From a virus: a stretch of 42,965 bases of DNA. Positions within the stretch are counted from its first letter, which is position 1, and the number at the start of each line of letters is the position of its first letter. Under the pieces are notes generated by a model. It was not told the DNA's origin, searched no databases, and saw nothing but the letters and a program-made list of their open reading frames with translations. Positions 489-36,784 of the stretch are shown here, piece after piece. The DNA lies in the IMG/VR virus record IMGVR_UViG_3300003321_000240, positions 1 through 42,965 of that record; one strand, 5' to 3'. Both the position numbers and the translations under genes were made by a program.

Positions 489-1423
489 ACCTTTAACCCT
501 TTTGTCCATTGGTTATCTTCAAACAGACTACCATTAAGAATCATGTCTCTTTGATGTTGGTTACTACTGCAAACATCGTAGTAATCACACAAGCCAAACT
601 TATTTGTACAATTCCAGCGATGCCTTGGAAAATGTCCGCTTGAGTGATAATCAAACACATTCTTAATCAAAGTCATCACGTCATTCTTCCACTCCGCAAT
701 CATGTCTTCGCTGACGTAATGCGGAGTGCGTTTAAAGTCCGTGCCGTCAATGCAGCTTTTCTCGCTGAACTCGTCTTTCTTTGTTGGACGGCGAACGCGG
801 ATGGCGTCGATGATGTAGCCTTGTGGCTTCTTACCAGTGACTTGCCATAACGCCCAGCAGTAACCAAGCTGGCCCCCATCCATTGCCATTTGCTTGTCGA
901 AGGTTTCGCCGAATTGGAAGGTTGTTTTATGATCGAATGACCATAGGCCGTTGTGGTCTTCAATGCCTAAGTCGATTTTGCCGCAATAGAAGACGTCAAT
1001 GTTATTAACTTTGCCGAACGGTAGCATGAAGCTCGCTTCAACAATTGACTTGCCCTCTTTGTTCGCCATAATCTTGAACCCTTCCTTACGATAGATGTTA
1101 TTATAAACCTGCATCATCTTGCAAGCATGGTTGAAGTTGCGGAAGTCCGTCTCCGGCTGCGGGTTTTCATCTAGCCATTCACGCATGGCTTGTTCGATTT
1201 GGGGTTGTTGTGCTAGCGTGACTTCTTCACTTCCGCAAAGCTTGTATCGAGTCTCTAATCCGCGGTGAATAGTTGAGCCGAAGTTAGCTCCGGCTCGCTC
1301 AGCCACCGGCACCCGACGTGCTAGCTCGCTGTATTGAAAAGCTCTCGGACACTTAAGCTTTTCTAGTCCCGAATTGTCGATTAAGAAAGCTCCATCGACG
1401 AGAGGTAGAGGCGGTAATGTCAT
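485..1423 (-). CDS. Cas4/RecB-like PD-(D/E)XK exonuclease with Fe-S cysteines
   Basis: A 312-residue nuclease of the PD-(D/E)XK superfamily. Core elements are in order: FGSTIHRG (H53), E129, KIDLG (D151), FDHKTT (D164, K166) and the QxxY element GGQLGY (Q185, Y188). Cys25 near the N terminus and Cys272, Cys279 and Cys285 near the C terminus have the spacing of the [4Fe-4S] cluster of Cas4/AddB-type enzymes. Known relatives degrade DNA ends to expose single strands for recombination. It lies directly upstream of the Sak4-like ATPase with a 4-bp overlap and overlaps the next upstream gene by 4 bp as well. It is not linked to any CRISPR array here, so a phage recombination role is the best inference. 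Confidence 0.85.
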   Translation of the reverse strand: MTLPPLPLVDGAFLIDNSGLEKLKCPRAFQYSELARRVPVAERAGANFGSTIHRGLETRYKLCGSEEVTLAQQPQIEQAMREWLDENPQPETDFRNFNHACKMMQVYNNIYRKEGFKIMANKEGKSIVEASFMLPFGKVNNIDVFYCGKIDLGIEDHNGLWSFDHKTTFQFGETFDKQMAMDGGQLGYCWALWQVTGKKPQGYIIDAIRVRRPTKKDEFSEKSCIDGTDFKRTPHYVSEDMIAEWKNDVMTLIKNVFDYHSSGHFPRHRWNCTNKFGLCDYYDVCSSNQHQRDMILNGSLFEDNQWTKGLKV

Positions 1424-1572
1424 ACGAATTCACTTATGTCTTGTTGTTTTTTGGTGCTTGATGTTTTCTTCTCTTTTAACGGCGCAACACTGGCGATATG
1501 TGCTTGCATCGTCTGGAAGTTTCGATGATCACGCAGCTTGGCGTGCCAGGCTTGTAGCTCCGCGTCTGTCAT
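1420..1572 (-). CDS. 50-residue protein ending in DISEFV
   Basis: A short helical, charged protein beginning MTDAELQAWHAKL and ending QQDISEFV. The reading frame is open up to 1761, but that extension is a Ser/Pro/Ala-rich stretch lying wholly on top of the previous gene. I choose the ATG at 1572, which falls one base after that gene's TGA. The gene overlaps the nuclease start by 4 bp (ATGA). The C-terminal six residues recur on two other small proteins of this phage (stops at 7681 and 10496). Function unknown; the shared tail suggests a common binding partner. Confidence 0.6.
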   Translation of the reverse strand: MTDAELQAWHAKLRDHRNFQTMQAHIASVAPLKEKKTSSTKKQQDISEFV

Positions 1573-1918: not shown

Positions 1919-2114
1919 TTTGTTTGCCTGTTGTTGGTGGTTGTGTGTTTGGATTAGGGATAAGGATTAGTAAGACTTGTTTGCAATCAAGGCAGGTTTT
2001 CTTTGTCTTCTCAATGAACCAGCGATGTTTGCATGTTTGCTCGCGAAAGATTTGTTCAGCGCGTTTGATTGAGTGCGGAAATTTTGATGGCCTTATGCGT
2101 GCGTCGCCGTTCAT
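1827..2114 (-). CDS. Small zinc-motif protein
   Basis: The N-terminal 50 residues contain a probable metal site: CKHRW followed about 13 residues later by CLDC, a spacing common in small phage zinc proteins. The C-terminal third is Thr/Pro/Asn-rich and overlaps the next gene, so it may be an unconstrained tail. The start overlaps the end of the upstream basic protein by 59 bp. No function can be assigned. Confidence 0.5.
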   Translation of the reverse strand: MNGDARIRPSKFPHSIKRAEQIFREQTCKHRWFIEKTKKTCLDCKQVLLILIPNPNTQPPTTGKQNGVQESVPRPTERTDTTNNTRDSVHGSQQA

Positions 2115-2277
2115 GGTATTTTCGTTTTTGTCTAAGTAAAATATGTTCTCGCTGCTTCCAGTAGTTTAACTGATTACGTATTGAATCTAGGTTTCTACTT
2201 TGAAAGTCAGTTCTTTGTTTAGGTGGTATTTTTAATAGGTTGTAGTGTTTAAAAATAAGGTGTTGAATATGAGTCAT
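2056..2277 (-). CDS. Small basic hypothetical protein
   Basis: 73 residues, strongly basic in the second half (LRQKRKYHERRRTHKAIK), with a predicted helical middle. It begins three bases after the stop of the 26-residue membrane peptide gene and overlaps the next gene by 59 bp. The basic tail would suit nucleic-acid contact, but nothing recognisable is present. Confidence 0.45.
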   Translation of the reverse strand: MTHIQHLIFKHYNLLKIPPKQRTDFQSRNLDSIRNQLNYWKQREHILLRQKRKYHERRRTHKAIKISALNQTR

Positions 2278-2280
2278 ACA

Positions 2281-2361
2281 CTAAAACACGAAATGCACAA
2301 CGGCGAACGCGATGGCTGTGGCGATCAACGCGATTCCTAAGTCGATTAAATGTTCTTTCAT
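2281..2361 (-). CDS. 26-residue single-pass membrane peptide
   Basis: Starts MKEHLIDLG and continues as one hydrophobic helix (IALIATAIAFAVVHFVF) to the C terminus. Its ATG follows directly on the stop of the zinc protein upstream, and the next gene begins three bases after its own stop, which is the packing expected of a real gene in this operon. Role unknown; one of several tiny membrane proteins in this block. Confidence 0.5.
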   Translation of the reverse strand: MKEHLIDLGIALIATAIAFAVVHFVF

Positions 2362-2362
2362 A

Positions 2363-2509
2363 TCATTTCTTTGGTCTTGGTGTGCCGCAGAGGGGGCAGA
2401 ATTTCCAATCATATGGAACAAAGTCATGCACCGTTCGCCAATCTCCGCTTGATGGAACACCGAAGTGGTGCCAGTAAATATGCCTACACCAACGTTTCTT
2501 TGTTTTCAT
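2363..2509 (-). CDS. 48-residue zinc-ribbon-like protein
   Basis: Starts MKTKKRWCRHIYWHHFG and ends with WKFCPLCGTPRPK, i.e. an N-terminal C-R-H and a C-terminal CPLC knuckle, as in small phage zinc ribbons. The ATG overlaps the TGA of the coiled-coil gene (ATGA). Probably a small DNA- or protein-binding accessory factor; the specific role is unknown. Confidence 0.6.
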   Translation of the reverse strand: MKTKKRWCRHIYWHHFGVPSSGDWRTVHDFVPYDWKFCPLCGTPRPKK

Positions 2510-3396
2510 ATTCCCAAGTTCTTTAGTTTGGCGAGGGCGTCATTTCGGCCGCAGGTGCATTCCAACTTGTAATCTCTTGCTTTTTTGCAGCCGGAGGTAT
2601 GACTATGTCCCTCAATGAAGCTAACAGCTTCCCTCAAAACCTGCACCACGTCGGATTGCGTCGATGTTGAGACAATTTTGTCCGTGTTTTCAATAATGCA
2701 AGAGTCGCCAATCTGGTAACGAGAGCATCCATCATGTTCTGCGATTCTGTTTCTACAAATAATTAACGCCTCCCGCATCTTCCCTCTTGCGAGTTCGGAG
2801 GCGAGGAGTTGTTGCTTTGCTTCTGTTAATTTTTCCAGAGATTTTACATAGCACTGTTTTGTGCTAAGCAAATCCAGCAATGCGCCCTGCAGTTCATAAC
2901 AGATTCGCTTAACTGCAGCCCTGATGCCTTCGTTTTCTTTTGCGCCAATTTCCATCCGCAGCGTGCGAATGCCTTCAATTTCAGCGTCTCGATTTCGCTC
3001 CAACTCCTCCACCTTAGCGCGGAGGTCATCTCGCTCCTTGGCGATGCAGTTAGGGCAGCCATCCTCGCCCTTCAAGTGAGCGCAAACATCGCAAATAGCT
3101 TCAATGTGATTGACAAGATTTCGCGCCTTAATCTTATCTGTTTCCAGCTTAAACTCCTTGGCCTTCGATTCTTGCTCTTCAACTTTAGCGCGAAGGTCTT
3201 TGTTTTCTTGAGCAGTAGCTGTATTGATGGCGACTTGAACCAGTTCCTCAAGTTCTTTTTGGCGAATGACTGTGCCGAAACTGTTAACGTAATTAGCAAC
3301 TGTGTTCTTCGATAAGTCACCAACTTGAATCTTGGCCTTAATGCCCATGACAGACTCTTCTGTACCACCAAAATGATGTAAGTGCGGATCACTCAT
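2506..3396 (-). CDS. Coiled-coil protein with cysteine pairs (296 aa)
   Basis: Residues about 50-220 are rich in heptad-like E/K/L/A patterns (for example NKDLRAKVEEQESK and RDDLRAKVEELERN, a repeated DLRAKVEE unit), predicting a long coiled coil. A CPNC motif interrupts it and a C-terminal pair CTCG may bind metal. A His/Gly-rich N terminus (DPHLHHFGG) precedes it. The start is an ATG preceded by an AAGAAAGA purine run. It heads the next set of small genes. Function not recognised; a scaffold or oligomerising accessory protein is the most one can say. Confidence 0.65.
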   Translation of the reverse strand: MSDPHLHHFGGTEESVMGIKAKIQVGDLSKNTVANYVNSFGTVIRQKELEELVQVAINTATAQENKDLRAKVEEQESKAKEFKLETDKIKARNLVNHIEAICDVCAHLKGEDGCPNCIAKERDDLRAKVEELERNRDAEIEGIRTLRMEIGAKENEGIRAAVKRICYELQGALLDLLSTKQCYVKSLEKLTEAKQQLLASELARGKMREALIICRNRIAEHDGCSRYQIGDSCIIENTDKIVSTSTQSDVVQVLREAVSFIEGHSHTSGCKKARDYKLECTCGRNDALAKLKNLGI

Positions 3397-3423
3397 AGAT
3401 TCTTTCTTGTTCGAGGTTTGGGG

Positions 3424-3567
3424 TCATAAATCATCTTTGTACTTTGATATTTTGTAAAGGCCTAGCGCGAATAAGGAGCAACCGGCGATGCATTGAATTA
3501 AGTTCAGTGGCCAATCTAAAGTTATAGACAATGCAATAACGCAAATCGCTAACATAATTTGTTTCAT
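3424..3567 (-). CDS. 47-residue membrane peptide
   Basis: Begins MKQIMLAICVIALSITLDW, a hydrophobic segment, then a second hydrophobic stretch (CIAGCSLFALGLY) and a lysine/aspartate tail, consistent with two short membrane passes. Its ATG overlaps the TGA of the upstream gene (ATGA), supporting it as a real gene. No function recognised. Confidence 0.5.
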   Translation of the reverse strand: MKQIMLAICVIALSITLDWPLNLIQCIAGCSLFALGLYKISKYKDDL

Positions 3568-3869
3568 TTCTTCTCCTCTCGCTCGATGGCTTGTTGGATT
3601 GCTTGGCGCAAATCTTTAATGTGGTCATAGTTGTACCAAATGTTTCCAACATTGGGAAATCCAGCTTGTGGATCACGTCCAAGCCAATCCAAATACAGCG
3701 AATCCTTCTTCGCCTCGGAGAGTTGGCGGGTTAGCTTCTTATTTTCTTTGCGTAAATCGGAAAGCTGGTTTTCAAGGCAAGCTTCAGAGTTTGGCGAATG
3801 CCCATCTCCATACATAGCATAACTTCGACCGCAAATATCACAATGATCTGGCATATTATTTTCTTTCAA
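3564..3869 (-). CDS. Small zinc-finger/coiled-coil protein (101 aa)
   Basis: The N terminus carries CDICG, a treble-clef-like knuckle followed by SYAMYGDGHSP. Residues about 34-58 (LSDLRKENKKLTRQLSEAKK) form a clear short coiled coil. The C-terminal part ends in a charged helix. A second start at the internal Met6 (MPDHCDICG) is possible. Lies between two small genes in the same orientation. Function unknown. Confidence 0.6.
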   Translation of the reverse strand: MKENNMPDHCDICGRSYAMYGDGHSPNSEACLENQLSDLRKENKKLTRQLSEAKKDSLYLDWLGRDPQAGFPNVGNIWYNYDHIKDLRQAIQQAIEREEKK

Positions 3870-3881
3870 CTTTTGCTCAAG

Positions 3882-4082
3882 CTATTGAACACGCTGACGG
3901 AGTAGCCCTGCGTGACCATTAGCTGCTTCAAGCCGACCATCCAACTCCTTCACCTTCTCATTCGCAGCATTGAGTTCCGCCCTATATTCAACTTCCTTTT
4001 CGGCTCTATGCTCATAGTAAGAGAATGATTTCTTGGCAGGTTCGGTTCTCGGCGTCTTTGATTCGTTGGGTTGCGCGCTCAT
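3882..4082 (-). CDS. Small coiled-coil protein (66 aa)
   Basis: A polar, Lys/Glu-rich N terminus is followed by a heptad-patterned helix (ELNAANEKVKELDGRLEAA). The ATG overlaps the TGA of the upstream gene (ATGA). The coiled coil resembles in style that of the neighbouring 101-residue protein, so the two might interact; this is inference only. Confidence 0.55.
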   Translation of the reverse strand: MSAQPNESKTPRTEPAKKSFSYYEHRAEKEVEYRAELNAANEKVKELDGRLEAANGHAGLLRQRVQ

Positions 4083-4309
4083 GTTGGCCTTTCAATTTTA
4101 ATCCATTGACCGGGATGGTCTTTGCAGAATTTGTCTAATAGGTGGTTGTAAGCCATTCTGCCACCGTTAGACTCCAGCCAATGAAGATGAAACACATTTC
4201 CAAAATCATCCTGATTGCCAATAACAATTCTCATCAGCTCAAACTCTTTTGCGCCTTTCGGCTTCCACCACCAAAGACCTTCGCCTGTAGGTTGCTCTAC
4301 TGATTCCAT
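4079..4309 (-). CDS. Hypothetical phage protein, WWWKPKG type (76 aa)
   Basis: An aromatic-rich protein with GEGLWWWKPKGAKEF near the N terminus and GQWIKIERP near the C terminus. This resembles small phage proteins that open with a W-x-R/K-P-x-G beta hairpin, but I cannot name a family. It overlaps the upstream membrane peptide gene by 13 bp and the downstream coiled-coil gene by 4 bp. Confidence 0.6.
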   Translation of the reverse strand: MESVEQPTGEGLWWWKPKGAKEFELMRIVIGNQDDFGNVFHLHWLESNGGRMAYNHLLDKFCKDHPGQWIKIERPT

Positions 4310-4461
4310 GTAAACGCTCCTGTTGTTTGGTCGTAGTGGGCTGCCTTGTGTTGGATTGCAATGTCTCTCATGCCGGACATTTCAAGCCATGAGCCAACTA
4401 TAGTTCCAATAACGATGCCGATTAAGATTCCAATGCAAATTCCTATACCATCTGCTTTCAT
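4297..4461 (-). CDS. 54-residue membrane-anchored phage peptide
   Basis: Starts MKADGIGICIGILIGIVIG, a glycine-rich transmembrane helix, and ends AAHYDQTTGAFTWN. The cytoplasmic-type tail (an A-A-H-Y...TG-x-F-x-W pattern) is a recurring ending among small phage membrane proteins of unknown role. The ATG directly abuts the TGA of the preceding gene. A single-pass membrane location is likely. Confidence 0.6.
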   Translation of the reverse strand: MKADGIGICIGILIGIVIGTIVGSWLEMSGMRDIAIQHKAAHYDQTTGAFTWNQ

Positions 4462-4632
4462 TCACTTTCCTTTCTTTGAAAATTCAATTCTAAGCGTGTC
4501 AATGAATGCTAAAAATAAAATTGCCCCGATAATACAAAAGGTCGAATGACCATATAAGTCGCAAAAATAAGCTAAGTCGTTGACCCAGAACATCAATCCT
4601 ATGGTCAGGTGCGTTAAATCAAACAGGTTCAT
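4462..4632 (-). CDS. 56-residue membrane peptide
   Basis: Begins MNLFDLTHLTIGLMFW and contains a second hydrophobic run (FCIIGAILFLAFI) before a basic tail (EFSKKGK). Two membrane passes are plausible. The start overlaps the preceding stop (ATGA) and its own stop abuts the next ATG, so spacing supports a real gene. Function unknown. Confidence 0.55.
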   Translation of the reverse strand: MNLFDLTHLTIGLMFWVNDLAYFCDLYGHSTFCIIGAILFLAFIDTLRIEFSKKGK

Positions 4633-4832
4633 CTCTTCCTTTTCTTGGTGCGTGGTTTGATGCGGCGGTAAAGCGCGATGAAAAAATACGCCTTTAAACC
4701 CACTAAAAATGGCGTTTCAAGTCTAGCCTCTTTGTGGCTATCCGCCCACACGTCTCTGGCTTTAATTTCTTCACTGTGCAAAACTAACCGCCAACCTCGC
4801 GCTGGGAATTTTGATGGGATTTTAGTTTTCAT
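4629..4832 (-). CDS. Small basic hypothetical protein (67 aa)
   Basis: Basic at both ends, with a central segment GWRLVLHSEEIKARDVWADS and a hydrophobic stretch FLVGLKAYFFIALYRR that may contact a membrane. The ATG overlaps the upstream TGA (ATGA). No family recognised. Confidence 0.55.
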   Translation of the reverse strand: MKTKIPSKFPARGWRLVLHSEEIKARDVWADSHKEARLETPFLVGLKAYFFIALYRRIKPRTKKRKR

Positions 4833-4915
4833 TTATGAAATCTTGCAAGGCCAAGTGCAAAAATTACTCCAAGGCAAAAACTTCCAATGCATATTGAGAT
4901 AAGTGCTATGATCAT
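4829..4915 (-). CDS. 28-residue membrane peptide
   Basis: A single hydrophobic helix starting MIIALISICIG and ending ALGLARFHK, with a positive C terminus that would favour a cytoplasmic tail. It starts two bases after the preceding stop and overlaps the next gene by ATGA. Function unknown. Confidence 0.45.
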   Translation of the reverse strand: MIIALISICIGSFCLGVIFALGLARFHK

Positions 4916-4917
4916 AG

Positions 4918-5172
4918 TTACTTCTTCCACTTCCCGCACGCTTTGACGAGTGCGATTGATAATTGTTTGGCAGTCGCTAGACAGGTGTACTCACCTGCAA
5001 TTCTAGCTACGATCATTGATTCTTGCTTCTCAATCACCGGAATAATGGCGTCACGGGAGGTGAGATAAGGTGGTCTGTGTGATAGGTTATCACAAGTACC
5101 TTCTACATGATAGTAAGTACAAGGTCTGTTATCCAATTTTGCTACTTCGATTATGAGTTCGGTGTCGGTCAT
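4918..5172 (-). CDS. Hypothetical phage protein (84 aa)
   Basis: Starts MTDTELIIEVAKLD and includes YLTSRDAIIPVIEK and a C-terminal ALVKACGKWKK. The pattern of an N-terminal 'E...A.LDG'-like helix, a 'Y.TS.DA..P.I' middle and a C-terminal 'AL..A.G.W' helix resembles a widespread small phage family whose function is unknown. I choose ATG 5172, which overlaps the upstream TGA (ATGA), rather than the ATG at 5178. Confidence 0.65.
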   Translation of the reverse strand: MTDTELIIEVAKLDNRPCTYYHVEGTCDNLSHRPPYLTSRDAIIPVIEKQESMIVARIAGEYTCLATAKQLSIALVKACGKWKK

Positions 5173-5378
5173 GACCATTCTCCTTTATTTTTTCTGTGAA
5201 AAGCGTCTTGGTCAGCAATAAGACGTATTTCTGTTTTAGAATCCCAGTCTTTGATTATGATAACTGGAAGGTCTTGACCTGTTGTCGTCTTTGCCATCTC
5301 TTTTTCTAGCCTGTCAGCATATAGGCGCAGTAAGCGTGGTGTCATATATACTTCTAAAACCGTCAAGTTTCTAATCAT
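5169..5378 (-). CDS. Hypothetical phage protein (69 aa)
   Basis: Begins MIRNLTVLEVYMTPRL; the middle is helical and the C terminus contains the beta-like segment PVIIIKDWDSKTEIRL. A longer frame to 5399 exists, but ATG 5378 lies one base after the upstream stop and is favoured. No function recognised. Confidence 0.55.
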   Translation of the reverse strand: MIRNLTVLEVYMTPRLLRLYADRLEKEMAKTTTGQDLPVIIIKDWDSKTEIRLIADQDAFHRKNKGEWS

Positions 5379-5379
5379 A

Positions 5380-5733
5380 TCATTCCTCCCACAGTCCAAG
5401 TGTTTTTAGAAGTGCCTCAGCTCGTTGCTCGAAGGTGGCGTGGCAATGTAGAAAGCCTTCATTAGAAATTTCAGGCCAGTACATATCCTTTCTATTTAAT
5501 AGACCATATAAAGCACCTGAATAGTCATATTGTTGTGCAGGCGTTAACTTCTTCTCACACTCATGGACAACATAGAGCCATTCGCGGGAAGTGATTCTGT
5601 CGCCCAATCTGCTTCCGACTCTCCATCTTAATGAAAGTACGATAACATCAGTTGAACAGTCATTGCCAATATGGGTTCCAATCATCTCCGGCAACAACTT
5701 TGCGAGGGCTAGTTTTTGTTTTTCGAGGGTCAT
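5380..5733 (-). CDS. Hypothetical phage protein (117 aa)
   Basis: A mixed alpha/beta protein with REWLYVVHECEKKLTP in the middle and the C terminus ATFEQRAEALLKTLGLWEE. The ending (A-T...Q-R-A-E-A-L-L-x-x-L-G-L-W) is a pattern seen in small phage proteins of unknown function encoded in clusters like this one. It precedes the 69-residue protein by one base. Confidence 0.65.
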   Translation of the reverse strand: MTLEKQKLALAKLLPEMIGTHIGNDCSTDVIVLSLRWRVGSRLGDRITSREWLYVVHECEKKLTPAQQYDYSGALYGLLNRKDMYWPEISNEGFLHCHATFEQRAEALLKTLGLWEE

Positions 5734-5735
5734 AA

Positions 5736-5948
5736 TCAGTCCTCCTGTAAAGCTTCTCTTAATGCTCTTTCTTCGTAATAAGTTCCCATTGATTCACAAT
5801 CAGATTCTTTAGCTGCTTCTTGTGCTTCTGCTTTGATGTAAGCAATTAGAGCATCCATTTGTTCTTTGTTAAGTTTCATAAAAGGTTCACTGGTGGCAAG
5901 GTTGGTTACTTGCATGAGGGCTAATTTGTCGGATTTTATTACTGCCAT
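5736..5948 (-). CDS. Hypothetical acidic protein (70 aa)
   Basis: An acidic helical protein (LNKEQMDALIAYIKAEAQEA) with no recognisable domain. It is the first protein gene downstream of the structured RNA/tRNA-like region, so the small-gene operon to its left probably shares a transcript with that RNA. A hairpin sits directly in front of its start. Confidence 0.6.
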   Translation of the reverse strand: MAVIKSDKLALMQVTNLATSEPFMKLNKEQMDALIAYIKAEAQEAAKESDCESMGTYYEERALREALQED

Positions 5949-5952
5949 TATT

Positions 5953-5970
5953 AGAGTGTTTACTCACTCT
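5953..5970 (-). promoter_or_regulatory. Hairpin just upstream of the small-gene operon
   Basis: A perfect 6-bp stem (AGAGTG/CACTCT) with a 6-base loop ends five bases before the ATG at 5948. It is close enough to mask the start region or mark an RNA-processing site. A similar stem based on CACTCT/AGAGTG lies on the other side of the tRNA-like element at 6117-6141. Between this hairpin and the tRNA-like element (5971-6029) a second small hairpin (TAGTG/CACTA) is seen and nothing else. Confidence 0.35.
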
Positions 5971-6029
5971 ACTCGCCTACAACGCGTCTTAGTGTTTTGC
6001 ACTATCTTCCGCCACACCAGTGATTAAAT

Positions 6030-6112
6030 TGGAGCTAGGCGTGAGATTTGAACTCACCTTCGGAAAACTACATTCGTCAATGTAGCTCCAACCTTCGCGG
6101 TTTGCACCTAGC
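6030..6112 (-). tRNA. tRNA-like cloverleaf with encoded CCA, non-canonical arms
   Basis: Reading leftward, GCTAGGT pairs with GCCTAGC as a 7-bp acceptor stem, followed by a discriminator T and an encoded CCA. The T arm is standard (GTGAG TTCAAAT CTCAC). The D arm is AACC/GGTT with a 5-base loop and no GG. The anticodon arm is CTACAT/ATGTAG with a 6-base loop, or a 5-bp stem with the 8-base loop TTGACGAA; a normal 7-base loop cannot be formed. About 10 bases separate this arm from the T arm. If it is a working tRNA the anticodon would be near GAC (Val), but I do not trust that. A tRNA mimic or processing signal is an alternative. Confidence 0.5.
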
Positions 6113-6116
6113 TTAA

Positions 6117-6141
6117 CACTCTTTATCGCTCCCAAAGAGTG
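6117..6141 (-). other. Hairpin between ncRNA and tRNA-like element
   Basis: A perfect 8-bp stem (CACTCTTT/AAAGAGTG) with a 9-base loop lies four bases from the 5' end of the tRNA-like element. There is no U-run, so it is not a typical terminator. It could be a processing signal or the 3' terminal stem of the large RNA. Confidence 0.4.
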
Positions 6142-6979
6142 AGAGAAGGGAATGGAGTTCACTTATAACTCGCACTAAGTAGTCAGTTCTTATTTATGCT
6201 AGCTAATTATCTGACAACTAGTTCTGCTTGCGAGGCATATTATTCGCCCTTACTAAATCACTATGATTGTTCAGGGCTGGTCAGTACTTTTTGTGGGTCA
6301 AATGACTCTGGCATACACATCACCTCAACTTTCATTTACTGACCTAAATTGGTGACTCCAAATAGGATATTATCCACACCAACTGTTGCCCATTTAAACC
6401 GTGCTCGATATGAGCATCAACCACGGTATTGTTAGCCGTGCCTTACACACGATAGGAGTCATAAAATCATTTTGAGCACGAGCAGGATTTAGTTTCCCTA
6501 CCTGCATATAGGTGAACCAACGTTGCCTATGCGTATTCCTCTCTGCGTCTTGGTGTTTCCGCCATCGTGCTCAAATTTGAATGTGTGGTAGTGAGGAACT
6601 TAGCTAACGGGATATAGTTCTTTACCCGTATGACTTGCTAATGAGCTTCGGCTGGTCAGTCATGGTATTGACAACCTTAGTGCTTAAATACTTGATGCTA
6701 ATTGGCCTGCATCGCCGCTCACCACCACAAAATTATTTCAAAAGATCGAATTGTGTTGGTGACTCCGTTGCGATTTTCAGACAACTTCATACGCACAGCG
6801 TCCGTTGCCCACAGATTAAACGTGTTCCAATCGCTGAGAATGTCCGGTCGCTGGAAGTCTTTCGACTAAGACCGAATTTCCGTGATTTGCCACATTCTCA
6901 CTTCACTAAGTTCCTTACGGTGCGCCGTAACACATCACTTAACTCGCTCTGGCAAAGAGAACGACTGGAACACTAAATT
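6142..6979 (-). ncRNA. Candidate large structured non-coding RNA
   Basis: About 0.84 kb without a convincing gene on either strand, in a genome that otherwise has almost no spacer. It contains long perfect helices: 6835-6843 with 6892-6900 (9 bp), 6471-6480 with 6566-6575 (10 bp), 6915-6920 with 6925-6930, and 6607-6611 with 6625-6629. On the minus strand, 6856-6867 forms AGTC-GAAA-GACT, a GNRA tetraloop, which argues for leftward transcription. Four short boxes recur in the same order about 0.4 kb apart, so the RNA looks internally duplicated. Size, phage context and the adjoining tRNA-like element recall the ornate phage RNAs GOLLD and ROOL, but I cannot confirm membership by sequence. Boundaries are approximate. 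Confidence 0.55.
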
Positions 6980-7684
6980 CTACAAAATCACGTAACAACC
7001 TTCTTCGTCGGTTGTTTTATCAAGTGCAATATCGTACCGATTCTCAAGATCGGTTTTTTGATCCTCAGTTAAGCCATGCACAACGAAAACCGGCTTCGGG
7101 TTGAACGCCTTTTCGTGCAGCAGTTTGCAGAGCTTTTCGACGTCATTAAAGTCAACACGAACATGCACTTCATTGTCTCGTGATTCGACGATTTTTAGCT
7201 CGTTCTTCTGTTCGCTTTGTCGGTCGACTTGCTTTTTATGCTTGCTACCGATAAGGACGCCGTTCTTTGTCGGCTCAATGCTAATTAAATGGCAGCGTTC
7301 GTTCCATTCTTCATCGTTGATATCAGGATGCTGCCAGCCGTAGGTTTGTTTGGCTTCACGAGCTTCACGGAGTTTGCGAGTAACGGTTTCGACAGACAAG
7401 CTGCCAACGTCAACAAGAAAGCTTTTAGGAAAATCCCTAATCGCCCGTGCCCATATCGGCGCAACGGACTCAAAATGGTGCTTCCGGTGTTTCGAGGGTA
7501 TTGAACTGCTCATACTGAAAAATTGACGGTAGATTCTGAATTGTTCGTTGGTTTCGAGATCGCGTACGAAAAGGAAACCAGTGGTTTCGTCGACATAATC
7601 GATAACGACGGGACGAGGGCCTTTGAGCGTCGTGGCTGCTATGCCTCGGCTGTTCAGTCCGAATTCCGGACAAGACTTATTCAT
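6980..7684 (-). CDS. Hypothetical protein (234 aa) with palindrome-derived N terminus
   Basis: Not recognised. The central segment (SVETVTRKLREAREAKQTYG) looks like a helix-turn-helix-style basic helical region. The C-terminal half is alpha/beta with VHVRVDFNDVEKLCKLL and PVFVVHGLTEDQ. The ATG overlaps the TGA of the upstream DITEFV protein gene. Codons 5-10 lie in a copy of the dispersed GTCC-N7-GGAC palindrome and read CPEFGL, so the N terminus may have been created by the element. It is the last protein gene before the structured RNA. Confidence 0.65.
   Translation of the reverse strand: MNKSCPEFGLNSRGIAATTLKGPRPVVIDYVDETTGFLFVRDLETNEQFRIYRQFFSMSSSIPSKHRKHHFESVAPIWARAIRDFPKSFLVDVGSLSVETVTRKLREAREAKQTYGWQHPDINDEEWNERCHLISIEPTKNGVLIGSKHKKQVDRQSEQKNELKIVESRDNEVHVRVDFNDVEKLCKLLHEKAFNPKPVFVVHGLTEDQKTDLENRYDIALDKTTDEEGCYVIL
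7657..7671. repeat. Dispersed palindrome, copy 1
   Basis: GTCC-GAATTCC-GGAC with flanks GTTCA and AAGAC; lies in codons 5-9 of the 234-residue gene. Confidence 0.8.
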
Positions 7685-7929
7685 ACAAATTCAGTAATGT
7701 CGACGACAGGAACGCAACGCTTGGTACACACGGGAACGCCTTCATAGCGTTTCAGCTGTTCCTTCGCTGCCGAACGGGTGGCTTTGTTCGATGACCGCGC
7801 CAGCAAGCGGAGTTTCGGCAATAAGCCGTACCAGCCTTCTTTGATGCGGTTCGTGATGCGGCGGTCCGTTAATGGAACGCCGATCGCTTCACGCCAGGTT
7901 GATTTGATTGGGACTTCGTTGGGTTTCAT
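7681..7929 (-). CDS. 82-residue basic protein ending in DITEFV
   Basis: A basic, helical protein (LLPKLRLLARSSNKATRSAA) likely to contact nucleic acid, ending VVDITEFV. The last six residues match, with one S/T change, the ends of two other small proteins (stops at 1420 and 10496). The stop overlaps the next ATG. Function unknown; the tail may be a docking peptide. Confidence 0.65.
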   Translation of the reverse strand: MKPNEVPIKSTWREAIGVPLTDRRITNRIKEGWYGLLPKLRLLARSSNKATRSAAKEQLKRYEGVPVCTKRCVPVVDITEFV

Positions 7930-9536: not shown

Positions 9537-10499
9537 TTAAGTGAGAATTTCTGCGTTTTCAAAACGATTTTGGTTGCGCCAGTTCAGAGCTTTTTCGATT
9601 GTGGTGCAGCTCGGTGCTACGCCTTCGAGGTGGTAGCAACCGACACTGGGGTTGAGCATTTTTAGGTAGAGAGCGTTTGTGGCTTCTCCGCCAAGGTTTA
9701 TGGATAAAAGTTCGTAGTTTTGCTTTTTCTGCAAAACGGTTGTTGGCAAAGCCGTCAACATCCTTTCTATGCCGATTTTACGGATAAGTTCGCGGCGAAC
9801 ATCGACATTTTGCTCTTTAAGCGCGTCGAAAGGATTAAGTTGTTCTGCCGGAGTCAAAACATGTTCTGGTTTCATCACCACGCCGTTCAAAGCCCAAACA
9901 CCCCACCCGTCACGGTATTCTAAAGCCATGCTTCCGTCTTGGTGGAGTTGGTTTTGAGCGTTGCGTTTTATTTTAATAGGAACGCTTCCGACAATTACAA
10001 AATCTTTAAAAGGGTAGTACAACCCTTGTCTAGTTGTTTCTGACCAAATTCGCCACTCGTTTAAGTTAGAAACGCCAATATACTCCATTGATTCAACCCA
10101 AGAAAAATAGCTTGCAAAAAAATGTCCGTCAATGTACGGCCAAACAAAATTTGACCTGACTTGTGACTCGACTTGTGACCTGACTTGTGACTCGACTTGT
10201 GACTCGACTTGTGACTCGACTTGTGACTCGACTTGTGACCAGACTTGTGACCTGACTTGTGACCTGACTTGTGACCAGACTTGTGACAACACTATCCCTC
10301 CAAGCCAACACCCAAAAGGCGAATCTAAAACAATTATTGGCCTTTCTTCGTTCTTGCCGTAAAGCCGTTTATGCAACTTTCTCGAAATCAAACGGCTTTC
10401 CTCGATAGATATCGGACCGGTATTTAACCCAATCTTAAGCCACTTATCTCGAATTTCGAGAATTTTTGCTTCCTGTGCTTTGGTTAGCGAATTAATCAT
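9537..10499 (-). CDS. DUF6745-like protein with SQVx tetrapeptide repeats
   Basis: A 320-residue protein with an N-terminal helical region, about a dozen SQV(R/E/W) tetrapeptide repeats around residues 75-120, then WPYIDGHFFASYFSWVESM, EYRDGWGVWALNGVVM and a C-terminal HLEGVAPSCTTIEKALNW. The order (Q-V repeats, W...F...V-E...G-V, YRDGWG-x-W..NGV, VAP...T...A-L-x-W) matches my memory of DUF6745 proteins, whose function is unknown. The repeats correspond to a 12-bp minisatellite likely to vary in copy number. The stop overlaps the neighbouring gene by ATGA. Function unknown. Confidence 0.65.
   Translation of the reverse strand: MINSLTKAQEAKILEIRDKWLKIGLNTGPISIEESRLISRKLHKRLYGKNEERPIIVLDSPFGCWLGGIVLSQVWSQVRSQVRSQVWSQVESQVESQVESQVESQVRSQVESQVRSNFVWPYIDGHFFASYFSWVESMEYIGVSNLNEWRIWSETTRQGLYYPFKDFVIVGSVPIKIKRNAQNQLHQDGSMALEYRDGWGVWALNGVVMKPEHVLTPAEQLNPFDALKEQNVDVRRELIRKIGIERMLTALPTTVLQKKQNYELLSINLGGEATNALYLKMLNPSVGCYHLEGVAPSCTTIEKALNWRNQNRFENAEILT
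10150..10287 (-). repeat. 12-bp minisatellite inside a coding region
   Basis: A run of about twelve 12-bp units, plus-strand consensus GACTTGTGACCT or GACTTGTGACTC, encodes SQVR, SQVE and SQVW on the minus strand. Units are near-identical with changes limited to the variable fourth residue. Because the unit is a multiple of three, copy-number change would keep frame. Confidence 0.85.
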
Positions 10500-10825
10500 A
10501 CAAATTCAGATATATCGACGATGGGTTTCTTTGCTGCAACCGGCTTGTTTTGACAAGCTGTTTTAAACTCCACCTGTGATTGAACATCCGGCACGAAATT
10601 GTCAATATGGCCGAAGGTTAGCGTCTCATCGCCTTTAATTATAGCACAAATTATCCCGTTCGTAGCGACTGCGACACCCCTCATATTCGGCAATGCGTGA
10701 ATCTGGCCGACGACAGGACTAGCAATCAAACGCCAGTCCTGCCAGGGTTTTGGTAGAACAACACGATATTGTTGTGCAAGTTCTTTGCACGAAGAAAAAC
10801 GCTGAAGGATTGTTATGCGTGCCAT
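10496..10825 (-). CDS. 109-residue protein ending in DISEFV
   Basis: Begins MARITILQRFSSCKEL; the body looks like a small beta-rich domain (WRLIASPVVGQIHALP, GVAVATNGIICAIIKG, ETLTFGHIDNFVP) followed by a linker and the tail KKPIVDISEFV. I take ATG 10825, which follows the upstream stop at 10827, rather than the ATG at 10861 inside the upstream gene. The last six residues are identical to those of the protein ending at 1420. Function unknown. Confidence 0.65.
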   Translation of the reverse strand: MARITILQRFSSCKELAQQYRVVLPKPWQDWRLIASPVVGQIHALPNMRGVAVATNGIICAIIKGDETLTFGHIDNFVPDVQSQVEFKTACQNKPVAAKKPIVDISEFV

Positions 10826-24964: not shown

Positions 24965-25266
24965 CTCCTGAACGAGAAACAGAATTGTTTAGACGTCTTG
25001 AAGACACGTCAAAGCGCTGCGACGATATTTATAACGTCCTTGCTGGTGACGGTCTTCATGAGAAACAAGGGTTAATCGGAAGGGTGAAACAAAACGAGAA
25101 CGACATTGACAATATGGACGACGTTCTTAATGATGAAAAGAAGGGCGTTGTGCCTAGGTTGGAAAAAGCTGAAAGTTTTATCTTTCGCGCTACAATCACG
25201 GTTGGAACAATCACTACAGTTTGTATCGTGCTTGGCTGGGTGGTTGAGTTGATAATTAAGCACTAA
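24961..25266 (+). CDS. XhlA-like coiled-coil membrane protein (lysis cassette)
   Basis: 101 residues: a charged coiled coil (ETELFRRLEDTSKRCDDIYN, then LIGRVKQNENDIDNMDD) followed by one C-terminal transmembrane helix (ATITVGTITTVCIVLGWVVE). This coiled-coil-plus-tail-anchor layout is that of XhlA-type accessory lysis proteins which act with a holin. It starts the lysis cassette, 22 bp before the holin. Confidence 0.65.
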   Translation: MTPERETELFRRLEDTSKRCDDIYNVLAGDGLHEKQGLIGRVKQNENDIDNMDDVLNDEKKGVVPRLEKAESFIFRATITVGTITTVCIVLGWVVELIIKH

Positions 25267-35927: not shown

Positions 35928-36439
35928 TCAAGACGTTTCCAGCTTAACGTTTTGAGCCATATCAACGTCATTTCAAAATAATTGAACAACTCTTGATGGA
36001 AGAGTTTGCTTTCTTTGTCCAAGCAAGCTTCCCACGTTATTGGTTCGATGTTAAGTAAGTAGTCTCTGCTTTCAAACCAGTCTGTGCGATAACGCATCCA
36101 TAGTCGTCTTGCTTGTTCTCTTTCTATGTAACCTTTCAAGGAGCCGTCAAGTTTCTCCATTTCTTCTTTTGACCACTCAACCGCTTTAGTTCTTTCGTTA
36201 AGTTTGTGACTTACCTCTCGACAGCGATCGTGAAATGTATCAAACACTCTTGATGCAAGAATTGAGTTGCAACTTGCGCAGCAATGTGCTACAGGCCCAA
36301 ACGCCGTGCTTCTTCTTTTAGGTTTAATCAAGCAGGTTTGAAACGCAACAGGAATTACATGATCTAATTGCGTAGCTGGGTCGCCGCAATAAGTGCAAAG
36401 TTTGCTACAACCGATTACAAAGAACGGATAATTGCTCAT
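35924..36439 (-). CDS. HNH endonuclease
   Basis: 171 residues. C15/C18 (CTYCG) and C54/C57 (CASCN) make the zinc site; LDHVIPV supplies D26-H27 and N58 and H70 complete a beta-beta-alpha metal HNH core. The rest is a helical, basic C-terminal region. Free-standing HNH genes at the junction of phage modules are often homing-type nucleases; some assist terminase. Here it is the last gene of a leftward unit and overlaps the convergent ejection gene. Confidence 0.85.
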   Translation of the reverse strand: MSNYPFFVIGCSKLCTYCGDPATQLDHVIPVAFQTCLIKPKRRSTAFGPVAHCCASCNSILASRVFDTFHDRCREVSHKLNERTKAVEWSKEEMEKLDGSLKGYIEREQARRLWMRYRTDWFESRDYLLNIEPITWEACLDKESKLFHQELFNYFEMTLIWLKTLSWKRLD

Positions 36440-36660
36440 TTAAACTCCTTAACTATTTTAGTTATCCAAGCTTGGTTTGTACAGACAGGGCTGCAATACT
36501 TTTGATGTGCTCTTTTCGGGTTAAACGGCTTCTTACAATTCTTGCATCGACGTGATGCAACCCATTCAATAGGGTCCCACTGCTCTAGTTCTTCTCGACT
36601 TTTTGGCTTCCTGCCTTTTGTTAGCCTAAATTTAGTTGCTTTTCTTAATGTATTTTTCAT
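36436..36660 (-). CDS. Small basic zinc-finger protein (74 aa)
   Basis: A basic N terminus (KATKFRLTKGRKPKSREELE) then a zinc finger CKNCKKPFNPKRAHQKYCSP-VC. The C-x2-C...H-x2-Y-C-x3-C arrangement is frequent in small phage DNA-binding proteins and in nuclease accessory fingers. It overlaps the HNH gene by ATGA and may act with it. The 124-bp spacer upstream (36661-36784) holds small hairpins and no gene. Confidence 0.75.
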   Translation of the reverse strand: MKNTLRKATKFRLTKGRKPKSREELEQWDPIEWVASRRCKNCKKPFNPKRAHQKYCSPVCTNQAWITKIVKEFK

Positions 36661-36784
36661 GCGAGAGGCTTCTAGCTATGATGATATTGCCGGAGGCAAA
36701 TGCCTCTTAAATCGCTTCTAATGCGCGGCGCGGGGCATCATAGTGCCTAGTCCGCGGTCGTCAGACCATCACAAAAGCAGATTC

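Follow-up and report, generated by a model that had tools for sequence, protein, structure and literature searches.

The largest gene-free stretch of the dense genome studied here (positions 5949-6979, 1031 nt) probably makes a folded RNA. We read it tentatively, with a probability of roughly 45%, as a lineage-specific noncoding RNA of the minus strand that would be cotranscribed with the early operon and would carry a tRNA mimic as its processing or end signal. The tRNA-like element (6112-6030, minus strand) is well supported and is the best-supported part of the region. The large RNA is moderately supported, and its function can be suggested by analogy with the phage RNAs GOLLD and ROOL.

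Gene content and genomic setting

The window, meaning the whole 42,965-nt stretch of DNA analysed, is an IMG/VR virus record that encodes a terminase, DNA polymerase, primase, ligase and exonuclease, and the genes in its first 14 kb run mostly leftward. The gene-free stretch is bounded by the stop of a 234-aa gene of unknown function (6980-7684, minus strand) and by the start of a 70-aa gene (5948). An earlier note on this DNA had described 0.84 kb without a gene at 6142-6979; this part holds, but the real extent is larger. A crude codon-based caller also reports gaps at 4462-5735, which is longer, and at 35928-36784 (857 nt). We discounted both because they contain consecutive same-strand ORFs with plausible starts, and therefore took 5949-6979 to be the longest stretch that is truly free of genes.

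That 6142-6979 holds no credible gene was borne out by ORF, Pfam, PHROGs, tblastn and alternative-code checks. The longest ORF in it, a 113-aa TTG ORF at 6635-6976, is oriented against the neighbouring genes and had no tblastn match among 50,697 phage records. When all six frames of the gene-free stretch were searched with stops masked, there were no Pfam matches up to E 1 and a single PHROGs match, of unknown function and at chance level (E 0.11). Reading the DNA with genetic codes 4 and 15 revealed no gene restricted to the gene-free region. A conserved protein frame across the region, which the earlier note had named as evidence against an RNA, was looked for and not seen.

We compared the locus with that of a relative (L003/G006) whose terminase is 53% identical to that of the window. 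At the equivalent place, the relative encodes an orthologue of the 234-aa gene (33% identity, E 9e-37), which directly meets the orthologue of 1574-1918, overlapping its start. The orthologue of 1420-1761 and then that of the exonuclease follow. A 5.06-kb segment of the window (1919-6979, minus strand), comprising the RNA region and roughly 15 closely packed small ORFs, is thus missing at the syntenic site. Judged from this gene order, the RNA region is accessory and forms one end of a variable cassette that was gained here or lost in the relative. One of the small cassette genes (4918-5178) is weakly related to a gene at another place in G006, and no direct repeats of at least 8 nt flank the cassette. 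The genes 1420-1761 and 1574-1918 share about 190 nt, read in different frames; this long overlap is conserved between the window and G006 (51% and 44% identity).

Two further observations concern proteins of these phages. Three window proteins share a C-terminal DI[ST]EFV (10496-10516, 7681-7701 and 1420-1440, minus strand), and four G006 proteins end in DISEFV, DLSEFV or NLAEFV (at 25044, 27015, 30510 and 36327 of G006); by eye, one of these looks SprT-like and another ParB/methyltransferase-like. A fifth protein of G006 has NLDEFV at its C-terminus, and this type of C-terminal peptide was absent from six other phage records. By analogy with the SSB tail, the shared tail may dock a common partner. 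In the gene at 9537-10499, a 12-nt repeat occurs about ten times (10128-10311) and encodes an SQVRSQVESQV tract ahead of a DUF6745 domain.

Searches for homologues of the region itself were negative in the sets covered, which may lack the records closest to the window's own, so siblings may exist. Using 6116-6985 as the query, blastn at E 10 found no phage match, and a blastn search of plasmids gave short chance matches only. The region was not present in 36 phage records with similar terminases, which were searched whole. Rfam searches of the region found no family at gathering score and no known riboswitch or leader family, and the large gene-free gaps of related phages, as delimited by a crude gene caller, yielded neither an Rfam hit nor a tRNA. 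Within the region, three motifs (TGGGCAAC..GGAGTCACCAA, ACTGACCAGCC and TGGCGGAA..AACACYAAGACGC) are repeated in the same order, and self-alignment of the region against shuffles gave p of about 0.003-0.03. We rejected an internal tandem duplication, as 7-21% of other windows from the same genome score as high, and over a third do so once relatives are included. The motifs were nevertheless kept as search patterns, and these gave only chance matches in IMG/VR viral contigs and GTDB genome contigs; the viral contig collection was also probed by protein searches. Almost all of the motif matches we examined lie inside ORFs of unrelated genes, three being copies of one gene, and one further match (L006) was dismissed as a relative on its sequence and its lack of blastn similarity. 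Run against 761 kb, a sequence model of the first motif recovered nothing beyond its own two copies.

A tRNA mimic within the gene-free stretch

The earlier note had placed a tRNA-like element next to the structured region. Such an element is present, but it lies inside the gene-free stretch. At 6112-6030 on the minus strand, the predicted fold has four paired arms (MFE -32.7 kcal/mol, z -4.37) and none of 200 shuffles folds as low. Its acceptor stem has 7 bp (GCTAGGT/GCCTAGC), its T-arm is canonical with a TTCRANN loop (GTGAG-TTCAAAT-CTCAC), and its 3' end carries a U discriminator and an encoded CCA. The D-arm (AACC-GCGAA-GGTT) has a 5-nt loop from which the usual GG is absent. The anticodon arm is a single long stem closed by GACG, without a 7-nt anticodon loop; an alternative 8-nt loop, TTGACGAA, is possible on paper and is not the predicted fold. 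Directly upstream of the element is a 9-bp hairpin on the same strand (6117-6141; z -3.8, 0/200 shuffles).

ARAGORN called no tRNA and no tmRNA in the window, so the element was not called, and the Rfam tRNA model RF00005 did not match it. The Rfam tRNA-Sec model (RF01852) gave 19.6 bits, mainly over the acceptor stem and T-arm, where the gathering score is 47 bits. When the tRNA-like part was included in the query, blastn matched phage tRNA genes across 43 nt, a weak similarity to their 3' part. A pattern combining acceptor stem, T-arm and NCCA had its sole match at 6112-6030 in eight phage records (~350 kb). Taken together, the closed anticodon arm and the missing ARAGORN and RF00005 calls rule out an ordinary tRNA with a 7-nt anticodon loop, and with the sole pattern match they identify the element as a tRNA mimic rather than an ordinary decoding tRNA.

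Folding of the large part and competing readings

Upstream of the mimic, 6142-6979 folds better than shuffled sequence on either strand (MFE z -2.55 on the minus strand, -3.8 on the plus strand), as does 5949-6985, which includes the whole gene-free stretch (-3.96 and -5.52); in all four cases, 0 of 60 shuffles were as low. These z-scores vary with the number of shuffles: that of 6010-6985 went from -6.0 with 20 shuffles to -3.2 with 60. For natural 838-nt windows of the genome the mean z is about -1 with an sd of 1.5, and values down to -5.6 occur in coding windows. Within the region, 200-nt windows mostly show ordinary folding, and the folding signal is therefore long-range. The earlier note had also pointed to many long perfect helices. 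An excess of Watson-Crick helices of at least 8 bp over shuffles was confirmed (15 versus 6.4+-2.6; none of 60 shuffles reaches 15), but it is moderate: other genome windows have 8.8 on average, three of 41 equal the region's 15, and helices of at least 9 bp, or with G-U pairs, show no excess over natural windows. Folding thus exceeds that of shuffles only moderately and does not stand out among the genome's coding windows.

The predicted minus-strand structure, derived from one sequence, begins with a 5' domain (6822-6973) closed by a 13-pair helix, GTGTTCCAGTCGT (6973-6961) with GCGATTGGAACAC (6834-6822), at a pair probability of 0.99. The GNRA-capped minus-strand hairpin described earlier is indeed there, as AGTC-GAAA-GACT at 6867-6856 (pair probability 0.93). 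A second domain (6584-6729) is closed by a 12-pair helix of TGTGGTGGTGAG (6729-6718) and CTCACTACCACA (6595-6584) with a pair probability of 0.98, and the predicted fold closes a third (6471-6575) with a perfect 11-bp helix of TTTGAGCACGA (6575-6565) and TCGTGCTCAAA (6481-6471). A local hairpin of 12 pairs follows at 6398-6427 (pair probability 0.96). Fold energy does not decide the strand, as the plus-strand z is at least as strong; we chose the minus strand because of the tRNA-like element and the direction of the operon.

We favour a folded RNA because six frames contain no protein in the largest accepted gene-free stretch of a dense genome, because the fold energy is below that of 60/60 shuffles on either strand and helices of at least 8 bp are in excess, and because a unique four-armed tRNA-like fold lies on the same strand as the surrounding genes. 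Against it count the lack of a homologue in the searched sets, folding that some coding windows equal, the plus-strand z and the lack of any promoter or terminator above chance. The analysis shows the lack of genes, the tRNA-like anatomy, the folding beyond that of shuffles and the accessory location; transcription of the RNA, its strand, processing and action are what we infer. Transcription of the minus strand, from about 6979 down to 5949, would yield a folded RNA of ~0.85-1.0 kb within the leftward early operon. The mimic retains the acceptor stem, the T-arm and the CCA, by which RNase P, CCA-end enzymes and EF-Tu-type partners recognise a tRNA, but lacks a usable anticodon; it would likely serve as a processing and end-forming signal. 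A cut by RNase P at 6112/6113 would give the large RNA its 3' end; alternatively, the tRNA-like element would stay in place and form a protected 3' end. During infection, the large part may then have a structural or sequestering role, like the one proposed for GOLLD and ROOL.

The main rival of this large-RNA reading is a quite possible one: function would be confined to the tRNA-like element, perhaps together with the hairpin just upstream, and the other ~0.85 kb would be spacer or the remains of lost genes in a fast-changing accessory cassette. The modest fold excess of the large part on its own (z -2.55 on the minus strand), the ordinary inner 200-nt windows and the absence of the cassette from the relative are all consistent with it. 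However, phages rarely retain 0.85 kb of spacer, none of the 60 shuffles folds as well, perfect helices are in excess, and there is no trace of a decayed protein.

Less probable, and in our view rather unlikely, is a long cis-acting leader for the small downstream genes (5948 and below), in which an RNase P cut at the mimic would separate or stabilise mRNAs. The stretch shares its strand with these genes, and a 7-bp hairpin (5952-5971, minus strand; z -3.72) lies directly before the start codon at 5948; this hairpin was ruled out as a typical terminator, as no T-run follows it. Yet ~1 kb would be very long for a leader, and no known riboswitch or leader family matched. We consider a decayed tRNA gene next to functionless noncoding DNA very improbable. 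The failure of ARAGORN and the Rfam tRNA model to score a tRNA, and the weak blastn similarity to phage tRNA genes in their 3' part, would fit decay. But decay should destroy pairing rather than create it, and here every one of the four arms is paired, the anticodon arm forms a single long stem and the CCA is intact.

Comparison with known RNAs

Only a few giant RNAs have been described in phages, and what they do is still an open question. GOLLD and ROOL, two large phage RNAs often found near tRNA islands, form RNA-only cages of unknown function (PMC12286853). The suggestion in the earlier note that the region is a divergent member of either class was not supported by the Rfam searches, and we regard it as the least probable of all readings. 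The GOLLD model RF02032 (416 positions), which represents the conserved 3' region, gave no match up to E 10 in the whole record or in 5950-7050; nor did the ROOL model RF03087 (574 positions), for which the record-wide search was also silent in control genomes, which weakens this negative. Membership is therefore not supported, despite the size, the phage origin, the GNRA hairpin and the embedded tRNA-like element. It is possible, if somewhat doubtful, that the region is the founding member of a new class of ~1-kb ornate phage RNAs borne on accessory cassettes and carrying a built-in tRNA mimic without an anticodon. A giant RNA that carries a tRNA mimic, rather than just lying near tRNAs, would suggest a purpose for the tRNA link, such as processing, protection or contact with the ribosome or EF-Tu, which would become testable; as a single sequence, the region is a candidate only.

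Like GOLLD, the region is phage-borne and ~0.8 kb or more in size, and GOLLD linkers sometimes contain tRNAs (PMC12286853). GOLLD frequently, though not universally, has a tRNA in its linker or lies close to a tRNA island, whereas this genome has no tRNA gene called by ARAGORN and the region carries only the anticodon-less mimic. The likeness to ROOL lies in large size and phage origin, ROOL being often located close to tRNA genes (PMC12286853); the region differs in being unmatched by the ROOL model, although control genomes gave no match either. The acceptor stem and T-arm of the element align to tRNA-Sec (RF01852), while its D and anticodon arms do not fit and its score is far below the gathering score. 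In tmRNA and in viral tRNA-like 3' ends, the acceptor stem, T-arm and CCA are retained and the anticodon is lost. Although there was no tmRNA call by ARAGORN and no Rfam match at gathering score, the element likewise retains its acceptor stem, T-arm and CCA without an anticodon.
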